Origin: Clostridia bacterium
GTDB taxonomy: Bacteria; Bacillota; Clostridia; UMGS1883
Direction: 5' to 3'
DNA: 41,625 bases
Assembly: GCA_017411435.1 (NCBI GenBank)
Contig: JAFQQD010000025.1
Span: 1-41,625, forward strand
Shown piece after piece: positions 1,524 through 16,601 of the stretch; within the stretch, counting starts at the first letter, position 1, and every line of letters starts with the position of its first letter. A program made the translations under genes and the position numbers. The notes under the pieces are model-generated. The model was not told the DNA's origin and made no database searches. It saw nothing but the letters and a program-made list of their open reading frames with translations.

Positions 1524-2147
1524 ATGAAAGGCAGATTTATAGTATTTGAAGGAATAGACGGTGCAGGAAAAAGCACGCAAATAGAAAAACTTCGTCAGAA
1601 ACTTGTAAACGAAGGCAGAAAGGTTTTTATAACTGCTGAGCCTACTGCATCCGTGACAGGCGGCATACTTCGTGATGCGCTTGCCGGAAACTACAAGCGC
1701 AGTGCAAGTGAACTTGCGGCAATGTTTCTTTCGGACCGTGTTTATCATAATGTGAATGAAAATACGGGTATTCTTCAGGCACTCGAAAAAGGTTTTGATG
1801 TAATTTCCGACAGATACTATTACTCTTCATTTGCGTATCAGGGACTTGACAGCGATATTGACTGGGTAATGAATATGAACCTTAACTGCCCCGACATAAG
1901 AAAACCCGACCTTTGCATATTTCTTGACCTTGACGCACAGAAGTCCAAGTCAAGAATTGACACAAACCGCGCAACTATTGAAATCTTCGAAAAAGAAGAT
2001 GTTTTGAATAAAATCCGAAACAAGTTTTTTGATGTTTTTGGCCGACTTCCCGATGAAAACATCGCAATTATTGATGCAAGCGGAAGTATTGACGAGGTTG
2101 CAGAAAAAATATCACAGGTAGTAGATAGCCTTAACGACCAACACTAA
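1524..2147 (+). CDS. tmk: Thymidylate kinase
   Basis: A 207-residue dTMP kinase, which phosphorylates dTMP to dTDP for DNA synthesis in the cytoplasm. The P-loop is GIDGAGKST (residues 10-18). The DRYYYSSFAYQG segment is the conserved substrate-binding DR(Y/F) motif. Length is normal for the family. The ATG is set by a good ribosome site (AAGGAGAG) and lies just downstream of a near-consensus promoter, so this is the first gene of the operon. tsaC follows after 13 bases. Confidence 0.95.
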   Translation: MKGRFIVFEGIDGAGKSTQIEKLRQKLVNEGRKVFITAEPTASVTGGILRDALAGNYKRSASELAAMFLSDRVYHNVNENTGILQALEKGFDVISDRYYYSSFAYQGLDSDIDWVMNMNLNCPDIRKPDLCIFLDLDAQKSKSRIDTNRATIEIFEKEDVLNKIRNKFFDVFGRLPDENIAIIDASGSIDEVAEKISQVVDSLNDQH

Positions 2148-2160
2148 AGGAAGATTAAAA

Positions 2161-3159
2161 TTGACCAAGATTATTAAGATTGACCCGCTCAATATTGATA
2201 TGGATTTACTTTCACAGGCTGCTGATGTTATAAAACACGGCGGCCTTGTGGCTTTTCCTACGGAAACGGTTTACGGTCTTGGTGCAGACACTTTTAACGC
2301 TGAGGCAGTCGCGAATATCTTCCGCGCAAAAGGTCGTCCGATGGATAACCCCCTGATTTCGCATATTGCCGATATAAGCGAGATTGAGCGTTTTGCACGC
2401 GAAATTCCCGACAGTGCTATAAAACTTGCAAATGAATTCTGGGGAGGTCCTCTTACAATCATTCTTAAAAAGAAAAATGGCATCCCCGATGCGGTTACGG
2501 CAGGACTTGACACCGTTGCAGTGAGACTTCCCAGTCACAGCGTTGCAAATGCACTTATAAAGCTTTCGGGCACACCGATTGCCGCCCCGAGCGCCAATCT
2601 TTCGGGCAGTCCGAGTCCCACGACTGCACAGCATTGTATAGCAGACCTTACAGGCAGAGTAGATATGATAATTGACGGCGGAAACAGTATGATAGGAATT
2701 GAATCAACGGTTGTTGATTTAAGTGGAGAAGTGCCCGTTGTACTTCGTCCCGGTGGAATTACTCCCGAGGATATGAGAAGTGTAATCGGCGAGGTTATTT
2801 ATTCAGGCGAAATCGAGGGCGCACCGCGTTGTCCCGGTATGAAATATACTCATTACAGTCCCGAGGCACAGGTAATTGTGCTTGAGGATATTGCATCCTT
2901 TGAAAAATACAGAGAAAACGGTAAAAAAACTTGCGTTATCGCAAAAAATGCGCCAAAACTTAATCCGAGTGCCGACATCGTATACGATGTCGGGGCGGAT
3001 GACCGCGAATATGCGGCACGCCTTTTCTACCTTTTGCGTAAGGCGGATGAGGACGGTGCAGATGTAGTTTTTGCTGAGCTTCCAGAAAATCACGGTATTG
3101 GAATCGCGCTTTACAACCGCCTTTATAAGTCGGCAGGGGGCAGGGTGATATTAAAATGA
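2161..3159 (+). CDS. tsaC: L-threonylcarbamoyladenylate synthase (Sua5/YwlC type)
   Basis: Makes threonylcarbamoyl-AMP from threonine, bicarbonate and ATP, the first step of t6A37 modification of ANN-reading tRNAs; TsaD, encoded two genes downstream, completes it. The YrdC domain (about 15-205) shows GGLVAFPTETVYGLGAD, then KGRPMDNPL and SAPSANLSG-like segments. The C-terminal Sua5 domain (from about 225, starting PGMKYTHYSP) makes this the long, two-domain form at 332 residues. The start is TTG at 2161, supported by AAGGAAG upstream; an internal ATG near 2200 lies closer to the conserved core and is less well supported. Its end overlaps the next gene by 4 bases. Confidence 0.93.
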   Translation: MTKIIKIDPLNIDMDLLSQAADVIKHGGLVAFPTETVYGLGADTFNAEAVANIFRAKGRPMDNPLISHIADISEIERFAREIPDSAIKLANEFWGGPLTIILKKKNGIPDAVTAGLDTVAVRLPSHSVANALIKLSGTPIAAPSANLSGSPSPTTAQHCIADLTGRVDMIIDGGNSMIGIESTVVDLSGEVPVVLRPGGITPEDMRSVIGEVIYSGEIEGAPRCPGMKYTHYSPEAQVIVLEDIASFEKYRENGKKTCVIAKNAPKLNPSADIVYDVGADDREYAARLFYLLRKADEDGADVVFAELPENHGIGIALYNRLYKSAGGRVILK

Positions 3160-4004
3160 GTAAGGACATTTTATTCGTATGCACGGGAAACACCTGCAGA
3201 AGTCCTATGGCAGAGGCGATTTTCAATACAATATTTGAAAATGTAAAGGCAGGTTCAGGCGGGATTTCCGTTATGGCACCAAGCGGTGCCGCAAAAAATG
3301 CTGTTATAGCAGTACAAAAGTATGGGGCATCACTTGAAAATCATATTTCAAGTCAGCTTACAGTTGAGGAGCTTTCAGAATATAAGCTTGTTCTCACGAT
3401 GACATCTTCTCAAAAAGAAATGCTTCGCCCGTATGTAAGTGGCGATAATATTATGACACTCTCCGAATTTGCAGGGGGAGATGACGATGTATACGACCCC
3501 TACGGCGGCACGCTTGAACTGTACGAAGAAACCGCAAGGCAGATTTATCACTACATCGTAAAGGGCATCGCGTTAAGAAGTGAAATATTTACTGCAACAG
3601 AGGATGACATTAGTGCTATATCAAAAATGGAGCAGGAATATTTTACAGACAGTTGGAGCGAAAACTCAATCAGAACGCAACTTCAGAATAAAAGAATTGT
3701 TGTATTGAAATCCCTTGGCGAAGTTATAGGCTACACAATTTTTATGACGGCTGCTGACGAGGGCGAAATTCTGCGAATTGCAATAAATAAAAATATCCGC
3801 AAAGGCGGACTTGGAAAAAAGCTTCTTATTTCTGCAATTGACAAAATGAAAAACGAAGGCGCGAACGAAATTTTCCTTGAGGTGCGCGAATCAAACAGTA
3901 GTGCAATTGCACTTTATGAATCAGTTGGATTTGAGGAAATAGGCATCCGTAAAAAATATTACGATGGCAAAGAGGATGCTATTTTATACAAGAAGGAACG
4001 GTAA
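3156..4004 (+). CDS. Fused low-MW protein (arginine) phosphatase - RimI N-acetyltransferase
   Basis: Two complete domains sit in one 282-residue frame. Residues 1-140 form a low-molecular-weight phosphatase: P-loop CTGNTCRS with nucleophile Cys9 and Arg15, and general acid Asp114 in DPYG. Thr13 sits where YwlE-type protein-arginine phosphatases have their specificity Thr, so arginine phosphatase is more likely than tyrosine phosphatase. Residues 145-282 are a GNAT domain of the RimI class: RKGGLGKKL for acetyl-CoA binding and [19 protein letters not shown]. RimI acetylates the N-terminal alanine of ribosomal protein S18. The gene overlaps tsaC by 4 bases and ends 2 bases before tsaD. rimI usually lies beside tsaD and ywlE beside tsaC, so the fusion joins two neighbours. 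No frameshift is seen at the junction. Confidence 0.88.
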
Positions 4005-9676: not shown

Positions 9677-11563
9677 TTAATCAAGTTCCGCGATTTCGTG
9701 GTAGAGGTCGGCATATCGCCCATTCATTTCAAGAAGTTCTTCATGCGTACCGCGTTCAATAATTCTGCCGCCTTCAAGCACCATAATCGCATTTGATTTA
9801 CGGACGGTTGAAAGCCTGTGAGCAATTACAAATGTAGTCCTGTTTTCCATCAGCGCGTCCATACCTTCCTCAATATGCTTTTCAGTTCTTGTATCGACAG
9901 AGCTTGTAGCCTCGTCAAGAATAAGTATAGGTGCATGGCTTATCGCCGCACGCGCGATGTTAAGAAGCTGCCTCTGACCTTGCGAAAGATTTGCACCGTC
10001 ATTTTCAAGCACCGTGTCATATCCGTTTTCAAGCCTTGTTATAAATGAATGTGCCGATGCTACCTTTGCCGCGGCAATAACTTCCTCGTCCGTTGCGTCA
10101 AGCCTGCCGTAACGGATGTTTTCCATAACAGTTCCCGTGAAGAGATGCGTGTCCTGAAGAACCATCGCAATATTCTTTCTTAAAAATCCGCGCTCTATTT
10201 CGTCAATCGGGACTCCGTCAATTGTGATGGTGCCTTCCTTAATATCATAAAAACGGGAAAGCAGATTTGTGACAGTCGTTTTTCCTGCGCCTGTCGAACC
10301 TACAAAGGCAATCTTCTGTCCGGGTTTTGCATAGAGCGAAATATTGTGAAGAACTGTCTTTTCAGGAGTATAACCAAAACTCACATTGTCGAGAACAACA
10401 TGACCTTCGATTTTTTCCATGGGAGTAGTTTTGGCGTTTTCTTTTTCGCCTTCTTCGGCAAGAACTTCAAAAACTCTTTCCGCACCGGCAAGAGCAGAAA
10501 ATACCGTATTCATCTGCATTGAAATCTGATTTATCGGCATATTGAAGCTTCGCGTGTAGTTAACCGATATCGTAAGACCACCTATATCAAAACCGCGTGT
10601 TACAACGAGTATTGCGCCCACACACGCCGTTATTCCGTAAGAAATGTTGCACAGCTGATGTGTGACAGGTCCCATAATGCCCGAACAGAACTGCGCCTTA
10701 ATCTGTGCCTTGCAGAGCTTGTCGTTAAGATACTCAAACTCCTCGACCGCAGTTTTTTCGTGATTGAATACCTTTACAACTTTCTGCCCTGAAATGGTTT
10801 CCTCGGCAAACCCATTGAGTGCACCAAGACTTTTTTGCTGAGTTACATAAGCGCTTCTGCCGGACTTCAATATCGCCTTACTTGCGAAGGTAAGAAGTGG
10901 TGTCATAACAATAGTTATAAGTCCTAAAATCCAGTTTGTATAAAGCATAAGAACAATTGTGCCAATAATAGTTATTGCACCTGATATAATCTGTATAAGA
11001 GTGGTGTTGAGCATTTCTCCGACTGCATCAACATCGTTTGAAAAGCGGCTCATAATATCGCCTGTGGAGTTTGTATCAAAATATCTTACGGGAAGTGTCT
11101 GAAGCTTTTCATACAAATCCGTGCGCATCTGCTTTAATGAGCGCTGTGAAACTGTCAGCATCAGCCTTTGCTGCCCCCACATTGTAAGAATGGAGGAGAG
11201 GTAGATAACCGCCATTACACCGATTCCGCCGAGTAATCCCGTAAGCCGTGCCGAAATATCAGTCCCCGGTGCGTAGTACAAAAATCTGTTCATAATTGGG
11301 CGCAATATGTATGACGATGCAAGTGAAAATCCCGTATGAAGAATCGCGCAGATAAATGCGCATATAAGAAGTGTTTTCTGGTCAGAGAGATAGCGAAGCA
11401 GTTTCACAATTGTTTTAAGAGCATTCTTGGGCTTTCCGTGTGCACCCATGTGTGCCATAGGACCGCCACCCCGCCTCGGACCTGGAGAAAACTGCTTTTT
11501 TTCAGGCTTTAAGGAGTAAGAACTATACTTTTTTTCGAGTCTTTCGAGTTTATTCTGGTCCAT
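9677..11563 (-). CDS. ABC exporter half-transporter, canonical NBD (BmrD/YheH-like)
   Basis: A 628-residue type IV ABC exporter subunit with a transmembrane domain (about 60-350) fused to an ATPase domain. Walker A is GSTGAGKTT (near 420), the signature is LSQGQRQ, and Walker B is ILILDEATSSVD with the catalytic Glu intact. An N-terminal extension of about 45 residues, rich in Gly, Arg and Pro, precedes the membrane part. It starts 3 bases after the stop of its partner, with the ribosome site GAGGAGGAG inside the partner's end. The partner has a degenerate Walker B, so the pair should form a heterodimer such as BmrCD or TM287/288. Multidrug or lipid export is the family's usual role; the substrate cannot be read from sequence. 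Confidence 0.9.
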   Translation of the reverse strand: MDQNKLERLEKKYSSYSLKPEKKQFSPGPRRGGGPMAHMGAHGKPKNALKTIVKLLRYLSDQKTLLICAFICAILHTGFSLASSYILRPIMNRFLYYAPGTDISARLTGLLGGIGVMAVIYLSSILTMWGQQRLMLTVSQRSLKQMRTDLYEKLQTLPVRYFDTNSTGDIMSRFSNDVDAVGEMLNTTLIQIISGAITIIGTIVLMLYTNWILGLITIVMTPLLTFASKAILKSGRSAYVTQQKSLGALNGFAEETISGQKVVKVFNHEKTAVEEFEYLNDKLCKAQIKAQFCSGIMGPVTHQLCNISYGITACVGAILVVTRGFDIGGLTISVNYTRSFNMPINQISMQMNTVFSALAGAERVFEVLAEEGEKENAKTTPMEKIEGHVVLDNVSFGYTPEKTVLHNISLYAKPGQKIAFVGSTGAGKTTVTNLLSRFYDIKEGTITIDGVPIDEIERGFLRKNIAMVLQDTHLFTGTVMENIRYGRLDATDEEVIAAAKVASAHSFITRLENGYDTVLENDGANLSQGQRQLLNIARAAISHAPILILDEATSSVDTRTEKHIEEGMDALMENRTTFVIAHRLSTVRKSNAIMVLEGGRIIERGTHEELLEMNGRYADLYHEIAELD

Positions 11564-11566
11564 AAC

Positions 11567-13297
11567 TTACTCCTCCTCTCTGTCTTTCTGCGAGTAGTAA
11601 ATTTCCTGATACTCTTCACAATTTTTCATAAGTTCGCTGTGCGTACCGATGCCCACAATCTTACCGTGGTCAAGCACAATTATCTTATCAGCATCGGAAA
11701 CAGATGTGATACGCTGGGCAATAATAATTTTTGTAACCCCTGAAAGCTCCTCACGGAACGCCTTGCGGATAGATGCATCAGTTGCGGTATCAACAGCGCT
11801 TGTCGAGTCGTCAAGGATGATAATTTTAGGGCTTTTAAGAAGCGCTCTTGCGATACAGAGTCTCTGTCTCTGCCCACCCGAAAGATTGGCACCACCGCGC
11901 CCGATGTCACTTTCATAGCCGTCATTAAATGATGTTATAAAGGAATCTGCCTGCGCGATTGTACATGCGCGTTTAAGTTCCTCATCAGTTGCATTTTCGT
12001 TACCCCAACGAAGGTTTTCGCTGACAGTTCCCGAGAAGAGCGTATTCTTCTGAAGAACTACCGAAACAGATTCACGCAGATTCTCGAGTGAGAAGTCTTT
12101 GGTATTTATACCGTCAATGAGTATTTCGCCTTCATCTGCATCATAAAGACGGGGAATGAGCGATATCAGTGTTGTCTTACCGCTTCCCGTAGAGCCAATT
12201 ATGCCGACAAGCTCGCCGGAATTTATTGAAAAACTTATATCGTCAAGTACCTTTTCGCTGTTCTTCTTGAAATAACGGAAAGAAACATTTCTAAACTCAA
12301 TACTTCCGTTTTCAACTTTGCGGTCTTTTTCTTTTGCATCATTGTCGGTTATATCGATAACCGCATCCAGAACAGCACTGATGCGCTTGTCACTTGCTGC
12401 TGCGCGTGTTCCCTGAAGAATAATCATCGCAAGGAAATTAAGTGCGGTAAGTATCTGTGTAAGGTATGTAATAAATGCCGTCAGCGTACCTATTTCCATG
12501 TCACCGACCATAATCGGTCTTCCCGAAAACCATACAACTGCAAGTGTCGTTATATTAACAGAAAGTGCAGATATTGGCATAAGATACTGCATAACCTTAA
12601 GTGCAGACATACTCTTTTCAAGAAGCTCATTATTGGTGTGCGAGAACTTTTCGATTTCGTAATCCTCTCGTACAAAGGATTTTATAACTTTTTCATTTGT
12701 GATTGTTTCGTTTATGTTGTTATTGAGCGAGTCAATGGCTTTTTGCATCTTCACATATCTTGGCGAAGCAGTTTTAATAATAATTGCAATTCCAAGAGCC
12801 AGAAAAGGCATAACCGCAAATATGATAAGCGCGAGCTTCGCGTTAAGAGTAAACGCCATAATAAGCGCGCCTACAAGCATAACGGGGCTACGGAACATAC
12901 CGCGCAGAAGTGTCTGCACGAAGTTTTGCACCTGAGTTATGTCATTTGTGATTCGTGTAATAAGAGAGCCTGTTGTGAAATCGTCAATATTTGAAAACGA
13001 GAACTTCTGAATTTGCTTAAAAACATCAAAACGCACTCCTGCGGCAAGGCGCGTTGAGGCGCGGATTGAAAAATTTGCACCGAGTATTCCTGTTGCCATC
13101 ATCAGAATTGCGATAAATGCCATAAGAATACCGTTTTTCAGGATGTACGGAATATCGCCCGTGGATGCACCCTTATTTATGATGTTGGCGTTAATGTAGG
13201 GGAGAATAAACTCGCCGCACGCCTCAAGAATCATAAAAAGCGGACCAAGGAGAAAATTATACCAGTATTTTTTTACATATGGAATATATTTTTTCAT
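11567..13297 (-). CDS. ABC exporter half-transporter, degenerate NBD (BmrC/YheI-like)
   Basis: A 576-residue half-exporter with six predicted membrane segments in the first ~310 residues and a C-terminal ATPase domain. Walker A GSTGSGKTT lies near 370 and the signature is LSGGQRQ. Walker B reads IIILDDSTSAVD, with Asp in place of the catalytic Glu (near 495). That substitution is the known mark of the non-catalytic site in heterodimeric exporters. The gene has its own promoter and AAGGAG ribosome site, and the catalytic partner follows directly downstream. Confidence 0.9.
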   Translation of the reverse strand: MKKYIPYVKKYWYNFLLGPLFMILEACGEFILPYINANIINKGASTGDIPYILKNGILMAFIAILMMATGILGANFSIRASTRLAAGVRFDVFKQIQKFSFSNIDDFTTGSLITRITNDITQVQNFVQTLLRGMFRSPVMLVGALIMAFTLNAKLALIIFAVMPFLALGIAIIIKTASPRYVKMQKAIDSLNNNINETITNEKVIKSFVREDYEIEKFSHTNNELLEKSMSALKVMQYLMPISALSVNITTLAVVWFSGRPIMVGDMEIGTLTAFITYLTQILTALNFLAMIILQGTRAAASDKRISAVLDAVIDITDNDAKEKDRKVENGSIEFRNVSFRYFKKNSEKVLDDISFSINSGELVGIIGSTGSGKTTLISLIPRLYDADEGEILIDGINTKDFSLENLRESVSVVLQKNTLFSGTVSENLRWGNENATDEELKRACTIAQADSFITSFNDGYESDIGRGGANLSGGQRQRLCIARALLKSPKIIILDDSTSAVDTATDASIRKAFREELSGVTKIIIAQRITSVSDADKIIVLDHGKIVGIGTHSELMKNCEEYQEIYYSQKDREEE

Positions 13298-13420: not shown

Positions 13421-14734
13421 TTATGCGTTTTTCATTACATAATCAAGCTGTGTTTTAAGGTTACCCATTGCAGTAGCCTCAACCGGCCCTGTAATGATTT
13501 CCTTGCCTGTATATTTTGCAGTAAGCGAGTTAAGGTAAGTATCCTTACTGCCGCCACCTACGATATTGATACAGTCAATAGTGCAGCCTGCAATTTTTTC
13601 GATTTCCTTGACAACTTCGTTGTATGAAGCTGCAAGTGAGTGGTAAACACTGTTTATAACATCGCCGATGGGAAGGTCCTTTTCACCAAGGCAATCGCGT
13701 ACCGCCTCAATCATATTGTCAGGAGAAACGAGCCTCTGGTCATTGGGGGAGAAGTGCTTTTCATACTTACTCTCCATCGCCATATTCATCATTTCATCGT
13801 ATGTGTACTTCTTGTCAAGGTCTTTTCTGATGCTCTGGAAAAGCCACATACCCATAATGTTTTTAAGGAAACGGTAGGTGTTATTTACGCCACCTTCGTT
13901 TGCAAAGTTTGCCTCAAGTGCTTCTTTTGATGTAACAGCTTCCTTATTCTGAACACCAACAAGACTCCATGTACCTGATGAAATGTACATTCCGTGTCCC
14001 TTAAGTGTACAAGCCGCAACAGCGGAAGCAGTATCGTGCGCAGGTGCGAAAACAACAGTTGCATCGTAGCCTACATACTCTTTAACCTCATCGCTGAAAT
14101 TACCAACAACGCTGCCGGGAGCATAAATCTTGTTAAAGATAGATTTTTTGATACCGAGTTTTTCGATAAGCTCCATATCCCAGTCGCGTGTCTTGGCATT
14201 AAGAAGGGAAGTGGTAGAAGAAATTGTGTACTCACTCTTCATTTCGCCTGTCAGTTTATAGGAAAGATATTCAGGCATCATCAGCATATGCTCTGCCTTT
14301 TCAAGTTTTCCTGATTTAGCATCGCAGTAAAGCTGATTGATGGTGTTGTAGTTCTGTCTTTGTATACCTGTTCTTGCATAAAGCTCTGCCTGAGGGATAA
14401 TAGTATCAATTTCCTCGGGAATTCCCACTGTTCTTCCGTCACGGTAAGAAACTGCAGGAAGAATTTCTTTTTTGTCCTTATCAAGAAGAACATAGTCAAC
14501 ACCCCATGTGTCAATAGCTACAGTTGAGGGGAGCTTTCCAAGTTCTTTACACTTTTTGATTCCTTCGATAATGGATTTTGTAAGATATTCAATATCCCAG
14601 GAGAGTGTTCCATCGACATTCTTAAAGCCGTTATCGAATCTGTAAACTTCGGTCATTTCGATAGTGCCGTTCTTGTACTCGCCAAGGATATGACGACCGC
14701 TAGAAGCGCCGATATCTATTGCTAAAGAATACAT
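13421..14734 (-). CDS. FGGY sugar kinase, rhamnulokinase type (probable L-fuculose kinase role)
   Basis: A 437-residue FGGY-family kinase. The N-terminus SLAIDIGASSGRH is the phosphate-binding strand of the ASKHA fold in rhamnulokinases; AIDTWGVDYVLLD, SYRDGRT and ISSGTWSLVG are further family segments, and the C-terminal NIVGGGSKD is the adenosine-binding loop. Sequence type says rhamnulokinase (L-rhamnulose phosphorylation). The gene directly follows fucI, and no rhamnose isomerase or rhamnulose aldolase is visible, so L-fuculose is the likelier substrate; RhaB-like kinases serve as fuculokinase in some other gut bacteria. The start has GGAGG. No fuculose-1-phosphate aldolase or transporter lies in the window. 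Confidence 0.82.
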   Translation of the reverse strand: MYSLAIDIGASSGRHILGEYKNGTIEMTEVYRFDNGFKNVDGTLSWDIEYLTKSIIEGIKKCKELGKLPSTVAIDTWGVDYVLLDKDKKEILPAVSYRDGRTVGIPEEIDTIIPQAELYARTGIQRQNYNTINQLYCDAKSGKLEKAEHMLMMPEYLSYKLTGEMKSEYTISSTTSLLNAKTRDWDMELIEKLGIKKSIFNKIYAPGSVVGNFSDEVKEYVGYDATVVFAPAHDTASAVAACTLKGHGMYISSGTWSLVGVQNKEAVTSKEALEANFANEGGVNNTYRFLKNIMGMWLFQSIRKDLDKKYTYDEMMNMAMESKYEKHFSPNDQRLVSPDNMIEAVRDCLGEKDLPIGDVINSVYHSLAASYNEVVKEIEKIAGCTIDCINIVGGGSKDTYLNSLTAKYTGKEIITGPVEATAMGNLKTQLDYVMKNA

Positions 14735-14757
14735 TTTATTACCTCCAATGTAGTAAT

Positions 14758-14785
14758 AAGGCGAGGGGGTTTATGCCCTCGCCTT
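14758..14785 (-). other. Intercistronic hairpin between fucI and the kinase
   Basis: Ten-bp stem AAGGCGAGGG/CCCTCGCCTT with an 8-base loop in the 61-bp gap. On the - strand it is followed by TTATTAC, with no U tract, so it looks more like an mRNA stability or processing element than a full terminator. It could lower kinase expression relative to fucI. Confidence 0.5.
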
Positions 14786-14795
14786 TAAGAATAAA

Positions 14796-16601
14796 TTACT
14801 TGCGTGTATCTTTGAAAAGAGGACCATAAGCCTCACATGCTCTGTAATCTGCGCCTTCCTTATCCATACCGAAAGCGTTCCAGCTTGAAGGTCTGAAGAT
14901 TTTTTCTTCAGGAACATTATGCATGCTTACGGGGATTCTGAGAATTGAGCAAAGTGTGATAATATCTGCACCGATATGACCGTAAGAAATTGCACCGTGG
15001 TTAGCACCCCAGTTATTCATTACATCATATGCAGTCTTGAATGCGCCTTCGCCTGTGCAGCGGGGAGCAAACCATGTGCAGGGCCATGTGTAGTCAGTTC
15101 TTGCCCAGAGCTTGTCAGAAACTTCCTCGGGAAGACCAACTGTCCAGCCTTCAGCAATCTGAAGAACGGGGCCAAGACCTTTTACAAGGTTAAGACGAAT
15201 CATTGTTGCAGGCATTTCAGCCGTTGTTTCAAATCTTGAAGAGTAACCGCCACCTCTGAAGTAGCCGATATCTGCATAGTTCCATGTAGAATTTTCAAGA
15301 ATTGCCTTCTGGTCTGCTTCTGTAACTTCGTACCAGGGCTTCATAACAGCGTTGCCGTTTTCGTCCTTTGCAGCGCCGTTAGCATCAAGACAGCAAGCAC
15401 CAGAATTGATAAGGTGGATGAAACCGTCAGCTTCCTTAGCCTTACCTTCGATATCGTAACCTGTAGCCTTCTTAACTGCATCGCCACTCCAGTATGTACG
15501 AACATCGGCGAACATCTGAGCACGGTTTGTAAGAAGCTTCATGAAGAGCATACCGATACCGTTTAATACATCGTTTTCTGTTGCAAGGATGTAGGGCTCT
15601 CTTGCACCGTTCCAGTCAAATGATGTGTTAAGCATTGCTTCGGGGAAGTCACAGTTGGGATAGAAGTCTGTCCACTGTCTCTGACCCTGGAAACCTGCTG
15701 CGATAGCGTTGTGACCAACCATTTCTTCTTCGCATCCCTTGGGAAGGTTGGGGTTGCCGTTCATAAGGTCCTTGATGATAACCATCATCTTAACAACGAA
15801 TTCCCAGTCTGCATCCTTTTCTTCTCTTGTCTTCTGAAGATTTTCGGGGTTCTTATCAAAACCTTCTATGCAGTTTTCCTTAGTCCACTTGAGAGCCTTC
15901 TGGAATTCAGCCTCATCGTAGATGCCTTCTGTCATTCGTCTGATGATTTCTACCTCGTCAACTGATTCAACTCTCATACCGAGATATTCTTCGATGAATT
16001 CGGGGCTGATGATTGAACCGCCGATACCCATACAGATAGAACCGATCTGGAGATATGACTTACCGCGCATTGTAGCTGCAGCAACTGCTGCTCTACCGAA
16101 GCGGAGAAGTTTTTCCTTGACATCTTCAGGGATAGATGTGTCTGTTGCTTCGCAAACATCGTGACCGTAAATGCCGAATGCGGGAAGACCCTTCTGAGCA
16201 TGTGTTGCAAGAACAGATGCAAGGTAAACTGCACCGGGTCTTTCAGTACCGTTGAAGCCCCAAACAGCCTTGATTGTGTTCTTGTCCATATCCATTGTTT
16301 CAGCGCCGTAGCACCAGCAGGGAGTAACAGTAAGAGTGATGTCTACGCCTTCCTTGCGGAACTTGTCTGCACAGGCAGCAGCCTCGCCAACTCTACCGAT
16401 AGTTGTGTCAGCGATAACAACCTTAACGGGTTCGCCGTTAGAATACTTAAGATTTTCTTCGAAAAGCTTTGCTGCGCTCTTCGCCATGTTCATTGTCTGT
16501 TCTTCAAGAGATTCACGAACACCGAGAACACCGCGTCTTCCGTCAATAGTAGGACGGATACCGATAACGGGATAATCGCCAACGAGTCTTGATTTTGCCA
16601 T
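14796..16601 (-). CDS. fucI: L-fucose isomerase
   Basis: A 601-residue aldose-ketose isomerase that converts L-fucose to L-fuculose (and D-arabinose to D-ribulose), using Mn2+. The N-terminus [23 protein letters not shown], the [15 protein letters not shown] block, [11 protein letters not shown] and the C-terminal [12 protein letters not shown] segments are those of the FucI family, and the length fits (E. coli about 590). It is the first gene of the fucose operon, with its own consensus promoter, a possible operator after the -10, and a TTGGAGG ribosome site. Fucose is a common mucin and plant sugar. Confidence 0.95.

Follow-up and report, generated by a model that had tools for sequence, protein, structure and literature searches.

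A gene between sua5/tsaC and tsaD in a Clostridia genome raises the question of whether a protein-arginine phosphatase and an N-terminal acetyltransferase have been joined in a single polypeptide and, if so, whether the joining ties the two reactions together. The gene lies in a window of 41,625 nucleotides, by which we mean the whole stretch of DNA analysed here. Its product presents two known enzymes, YwlE and RimI, in a new form, joined in one polypeptide.

The fusion gene and its operon

The gene is part of a tight run in the order tmk, sua5/tsaC, fusion, tsaD, peptidase M24 and HD hydrolase, with the following features:

1524..2147, + strand: tmk (dTMP kinase; TIGR00041), first gene of the run
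2161..3159, + strand: sua5/tsaC (L-threonylcarbamoyladenylate synthase; PF01300, PF03481, TIGR00057), overlapping the fusion gene
3156..4004, + strand: YwlE-RimI fusion gene, a single open frame of 282 aa
4007..5014, + strand: tsaD (TIGR03723 equivalog), protein N-terminus MAYILGIE

The stop codon of sua5 and the start codon of the fusion overlap as ATGA, and tsaD starts 2 bases past the fusion stop, bearing out the placement of the fusion between tsaC and tsaD in the t6A operon that was made in the initial annotation. The frame runs from ATG to TAA with zero internal stops, at the coordinates given in that annotation, and the complete LMW phosphatase and complete RimI that had been recognised in it were both recovered, as Pfam LMWPc and TIGR01575 matches. 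These two strong domain matches rule out a chance open reading frame. Scanning of the frame found no ATG, GTG or TTG in codons 101-157, so that a separate RimI cannot begin there by ordinary initiation. The tsaB gene was located on another contig (G000:C20:56146-56559; TIGR03725), away from tsaD.

The phosphatase half and its predicted partner kinase

The N-terminal half contains the following features:

3168..3548, + strand: LMW phosphatase domain, YwlE type, residues 5-131 (PF01451)
3180..3203, + strand: P-loop CTGNTCRS, with the nucleophile Cys9, Thr13 at the phospho-arginine position, and Arg15
3495..3503, + strand: DPY (D114-P115-Y116), with the general acid Asp114; D and P unchanged throughout the six members of the genus

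The Pfam LMWPc match scores 89 bits (4e-25), the cut-off being 23. The nearest solved relatives of this half are the B. subtilis YwlE structures 4eti, 1zgg and 4kk3, and Foldseek aligns it with YwlE at a TMt of 0.80-0.83. Both marks of the YwlE type are present, namely a C(X)4CR(S/T) P-loop carrying Thr as its PX5 residue and a general-acid Asp in DP(F/Y). Cys9, Thr13, Arg15 and Asp114 had been called correctly from the start, and all are invariant among the six members of the genus. Threonine at the fifth position of the P-loop (PX5) directs phospho-arginine selectivity (PMC8001253). It occupies PX5 in all but two of the YwlE-type domains compared, a set that is unbiased for the loci found by genome search and biased for those gathered by two patterns, one of which demands the Thr P-loop motif. 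The other LMW phosphatase of the genome, on contig C7, is of the tyrosine type, with the P-loop CLGNICRS and Ile at the Thr13 position. The N-terminal half resembles B. subtilis YwlE and S. aureus PtpB in having CTGNTCRS with Thr, DP(F/Y), the fold and an McsB in the genome, but the standalone enzyme stops where RimI starts in the fusion.

A search for mcsB in the same genome, which had been proposed with the initial annotation, found ctsR, mcsA, mcsB and clpC together, with McsB on contig C21. This McsB scores 371 bits, slightly below the NCBIfam cut-off of 385, and was counted as the partner kinase. Across 293 Clostridia genomes with a completeness of at least 95%, scored for a YwlE-type protein at E <= 1e-9 and for a strong McsB, both were present in 152 and neither in 103 (odds ratio 48, p 2e-39, phylogeny ignored). 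YwlE and McsB are both absent from 8/8 genomes of the sister genus g4 (G009, G011, G013, G014, G016, G018, G019, G020); in the other genera of the window's family, YwlE is present in 12/13 genomes and McsB in 11/13. The co-loss in g4 amounts to a clean natural experiment on the assignment of the phosphatase. McsB was also found in 28/28 Oscillospiraceae-type genomes with a fused or directly adjacent YwlE-RimI, and the single genome of this type with RimI alone was without McsB.

Together with Thr13 and the presence of McsB in the same genome, this co-occurrence and co-loss support the YwlE-type, phospho-arginine identity that had been proposed, and a predicted arginine phosphatase opposing McsB is the best reading of the N-terminal half, and a well-supported one. 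LMW phosphatases are promiscuous in vitro, and 13 of the 293 genomes contain a YwlE-type protein without a strong McsB (the reverse was seen in 25), as might be expected if this half were an ordinary tyrosine phosphatase or acted on a phospho-substrate other than phospho-arginine. We consider this improbable, however, given Thr rather than Ile at position 13, the tyrosine-type motif in the genome's other LMW phosphatase, and the shared presence and loss of YwlE and McsB.

The predicted partnership with McsB may not be strict. In the fused protein L193, from genome G830, the P-loop is replaced by GTGDTCRS, with the catalytic Cys gone, and the DP motif is missing too; its RimI is intact. The expectation that a fusion with a dead phosphatase would sit in an McsB-less genome failed, as G830 has kept McsB, and this case fits poorly with a strict YwlE-McsB partnership.

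Conservation of the fusion and the domain junction

The fusion is stop-free in 6/6 genomes of the genus with an assembled locus, these being the window's own genome and G001, G003, G004, G005 and G006; G002, which is 78% complete, falls outside this count since its locus is not assembled and TsaD is missing as well. The fusions of the genus are 50-67% identical to one another, and all six have the same catalytic residues in each half. Whole-frame pairwise dN/dS was ~0.12-0.24 where dS could be estimated, with dS near saturation, and by these comparisons of sequence the fusion gene is under purifying selection.

An error of assembly or sequencing that erased a stop codon or frameshift separating a pair of overlapping genes could in principle produce such a frame. 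In the sister genus g5, ywlE and rimI overlap as ATGA at the position of the junction, so that a small indel, even a single one, would be enough to join them. It is exceedingly improbable that this accounts for the fusion, as six separately assembled and diverged genomes all have it, and stop-free YwlE-RimI fusions were found in a further 22/120 genomes of the Oscillospiraceae-type family. The initial annotation had made its reading depend on the fusion being found in other genomes, and many carry it.

One further feature lies at the junction:

3513..3578, + strand: C-terminal helix of the phosphatase, residues 120-141, with no flexible linker in the AlphaFold2 model

In the AlphaFold2 model of the whole fusion (mean pLDDT 89.5, pTM 0.85), this helix is predicted to continue without a break into the acetyltransferase domain, whose first strand is at residue 143. 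None of the PDB matches obtained with Foldseek is a solved structure with both domains; YwlE and RimI were matched separately.

The acetyltransferase half and its candidate substrate

The C-terminal half contains two features:

3609..3986, + strand: RimI acetyltransferase domain, residues 152-277 (TIGR01575 equivalog; Foldseek)
3876..3917, + strand: RimI catalytic segment with Glu242 and Tyr254 (LEVR....AIALY); E and Y kept in all fusions checked

The match to the NCBIfam rimI equivalog TIGR01575 scores 120.7 bits, above the cut-off of 86.4, Pfam places a GNAT acetyltransferase at residues 154-259, and Foldseek aligns this half with E. coli RimI (5isv) at a TMt of 0.79. The catalytic Glu and Tyr expected of RimI are present as Glu242 and Tyr254, which we take to be Glu103 and Tyr115 of the E. 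coli enzyme. This half is thus like the S18-alanine N-acetyltransferase RimI (5isv, 2cnm) in its equivalog score, its fold, its catalytic residues and its place beside tsaD, but differs in the phosphatase attached at its N-terminus and in the S18 of the organism, which lacks an N-terminal alanine.

E. coli RimI acetylates S18 at its N-terminal Ala (PMC4926160). In the genus, S18 starts with MMEKEK, MMEKDK or MMEKTER, preceded by a good ribosome site (L158, L159, L162, L163, L165, L166), and no S18 with an N-terminal Ala after Met removal was found among them. Methionine ahead of Met or Glu is normally kept, not removed, and with the MMEK(E/D/T) start this means that the canonical RimI substrate is absent in the genus. 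The interpretation first given to this locus is supported as regards the fusion, its position among the t6A genes, the intactness of both active sites and the YwlE-type identity; its link to N-acetylation of S18 is not supported. In other genera of the order, S18 mostly has M-D/E or MM starts, with one M-T (L154).

The RimI of Mtb has relaxed specificity, acetylating the N-terminus of TsaD in vitro and interacting with TsaD in vivo (PMC4926160). In 6/6 members of the genus TsaD starts with MA or MS, which makes it a candidate substrate. The C-terminal half is predicted to acetylate protein N-termini, and TsaD (with Ala or Ser exposed once Met is removed) or a wider range of proteins would be a more plausible substrate than S18-Ala. 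The retention of RimI where S18 is without the acetylated alanine poses a testable question as to the real targets of RimI in Clostridia.

Distribution and origin of the fusions

Elsewhere in the family and order, genera with both genes keep ywlE and rimI as two adjoining genes flanked by sua5 and tsaD, in agreement with the initial description of the usual stand-alone genes as adjoining tsaC and tsaD. The operon of G011 and G016, from genus g4, reads sua5-rimI-tsaD. In a TsaD tree, the fusions of the genus form one clade with a support of 97, and the Oscillospiraceae-type fusions fall far from it. The fused label needs 4 changes on this tree, at least three of them forced by well-supported branches, and 6 changes on a tree with more rows, at least four of them on well-supported branches. 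These counts disfavour a single ancestral fusion for all Clostridia. Judged from the genomes and trees compared, YwlE and RimI have genuinely been joined, and on more than one occasion, in two or more distant groups. Elsewhere in the phylum, a sample of 398 genomes yielded no YwlE-RimI fusion at E 1e-28, a cut-off that sees close cases only. A phage origin was rejected, as no record in the phage collection covers 80% of the query and the five matches listed are to the RimI half.

YwlE has also been joined to other proteins. Sua5-YwlE fusions occur in Monoglobus, Ructibacterium and their relatives (L077, L107, L145, L148, L133) and form one clade in the TsaD tree; they involve the same operon and the same phosphatase, but YwlE is joined to the upstream gene and not to the downstream one. 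YwlE-RpiB fusions occur in Thermoanaerobacter and in two further genomes of Bacillota (L109, L113, L117). Here too a YwlE-type phosphatase forms the N-terminal part, but it is joined to ribose-5-phosphate isomerase B, whose gene follows ywlE in B. subtilis, rather than to RimI. The T. tengcongensis structure 4egs, deposited as RpiB, contains a YwlE-type domain. The fusions to Sua5 and RpiB suggest that YwlE tends to fuse with whichever gene adjoins it. A protein-arginine phosphatase thus sits in the t6A/RimI operon and has three fusion partners across lineages (RimI, Sua5 and RpiB). A literature search found no paper on a YwlE-RimI or YwlE-RpiB fusion.

Probable consequences of the fusion

The account that we favour, and consider likely, is that of a bifunctional protein formed by fusion of adjacent ywlE and rimI, consisting of two probably independent enzymes. 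In the ancestor of the genus, ywlE and rimI would have been adjacent, co-translated genes in a sua5-ywlE-rimI-tsaD operon and would have fused there. The N-terminal half would then take phosphate off protein arginines, opposing McsB, and the C-terminal half would acetylate protein N-termini, with S18-Ala excluded as a substrate in the genus. The two enzymes would most likely act independently, and fixed 1:1 expression would be the main consequence of the fusion.

The initial annotation had gone on to infer that both activities are tied together in one polypeptide; the fusions of YwlE with Sua5 and RpiB fit joining by adjacency instead. A functional coupling would place arginine dephosphorylation at the site of N-acetylation of nascent chains or of the t6A machinery, and the fusion would be kept for that reason. 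Such coupling is unlikely, even though the fusion is old enough to span a genus at 50% identity, has apparently arisen in two or more distant groups, is modelled with a compact and confident junction in which the helix runs straight into the GNAT fold, and includes an enzyme whose Mtb counterpart acts on TsaD. Coupling is disfavoured because YwlE fuses to unrelated neighbours as well; the two genes are commonly separate and adjacent, the phosphatase is degenerate in one fused protein (L193), and no substrate shared by the two enzymes is known. The narrower proposal, that phospho-arginine removal and N-acetylation are coupled on the same nascent or new proteins (perhaps TsaD or translation-quality factors) and so keep the fusion, we regard as improbable; if true, it would link the degradation mark of McsB/ClpCP with the processing of N-termini. 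Under the favoured account of two probably independent enzymes, adjacency within the operon would be what brought them together.

Elsewhere in the window, an FGGY carbohydrate kinase gene adjoins an L-fucose isomerase gene at 13421-16601, and two ABC exporter genes lie beside this pair at 9677-13297.
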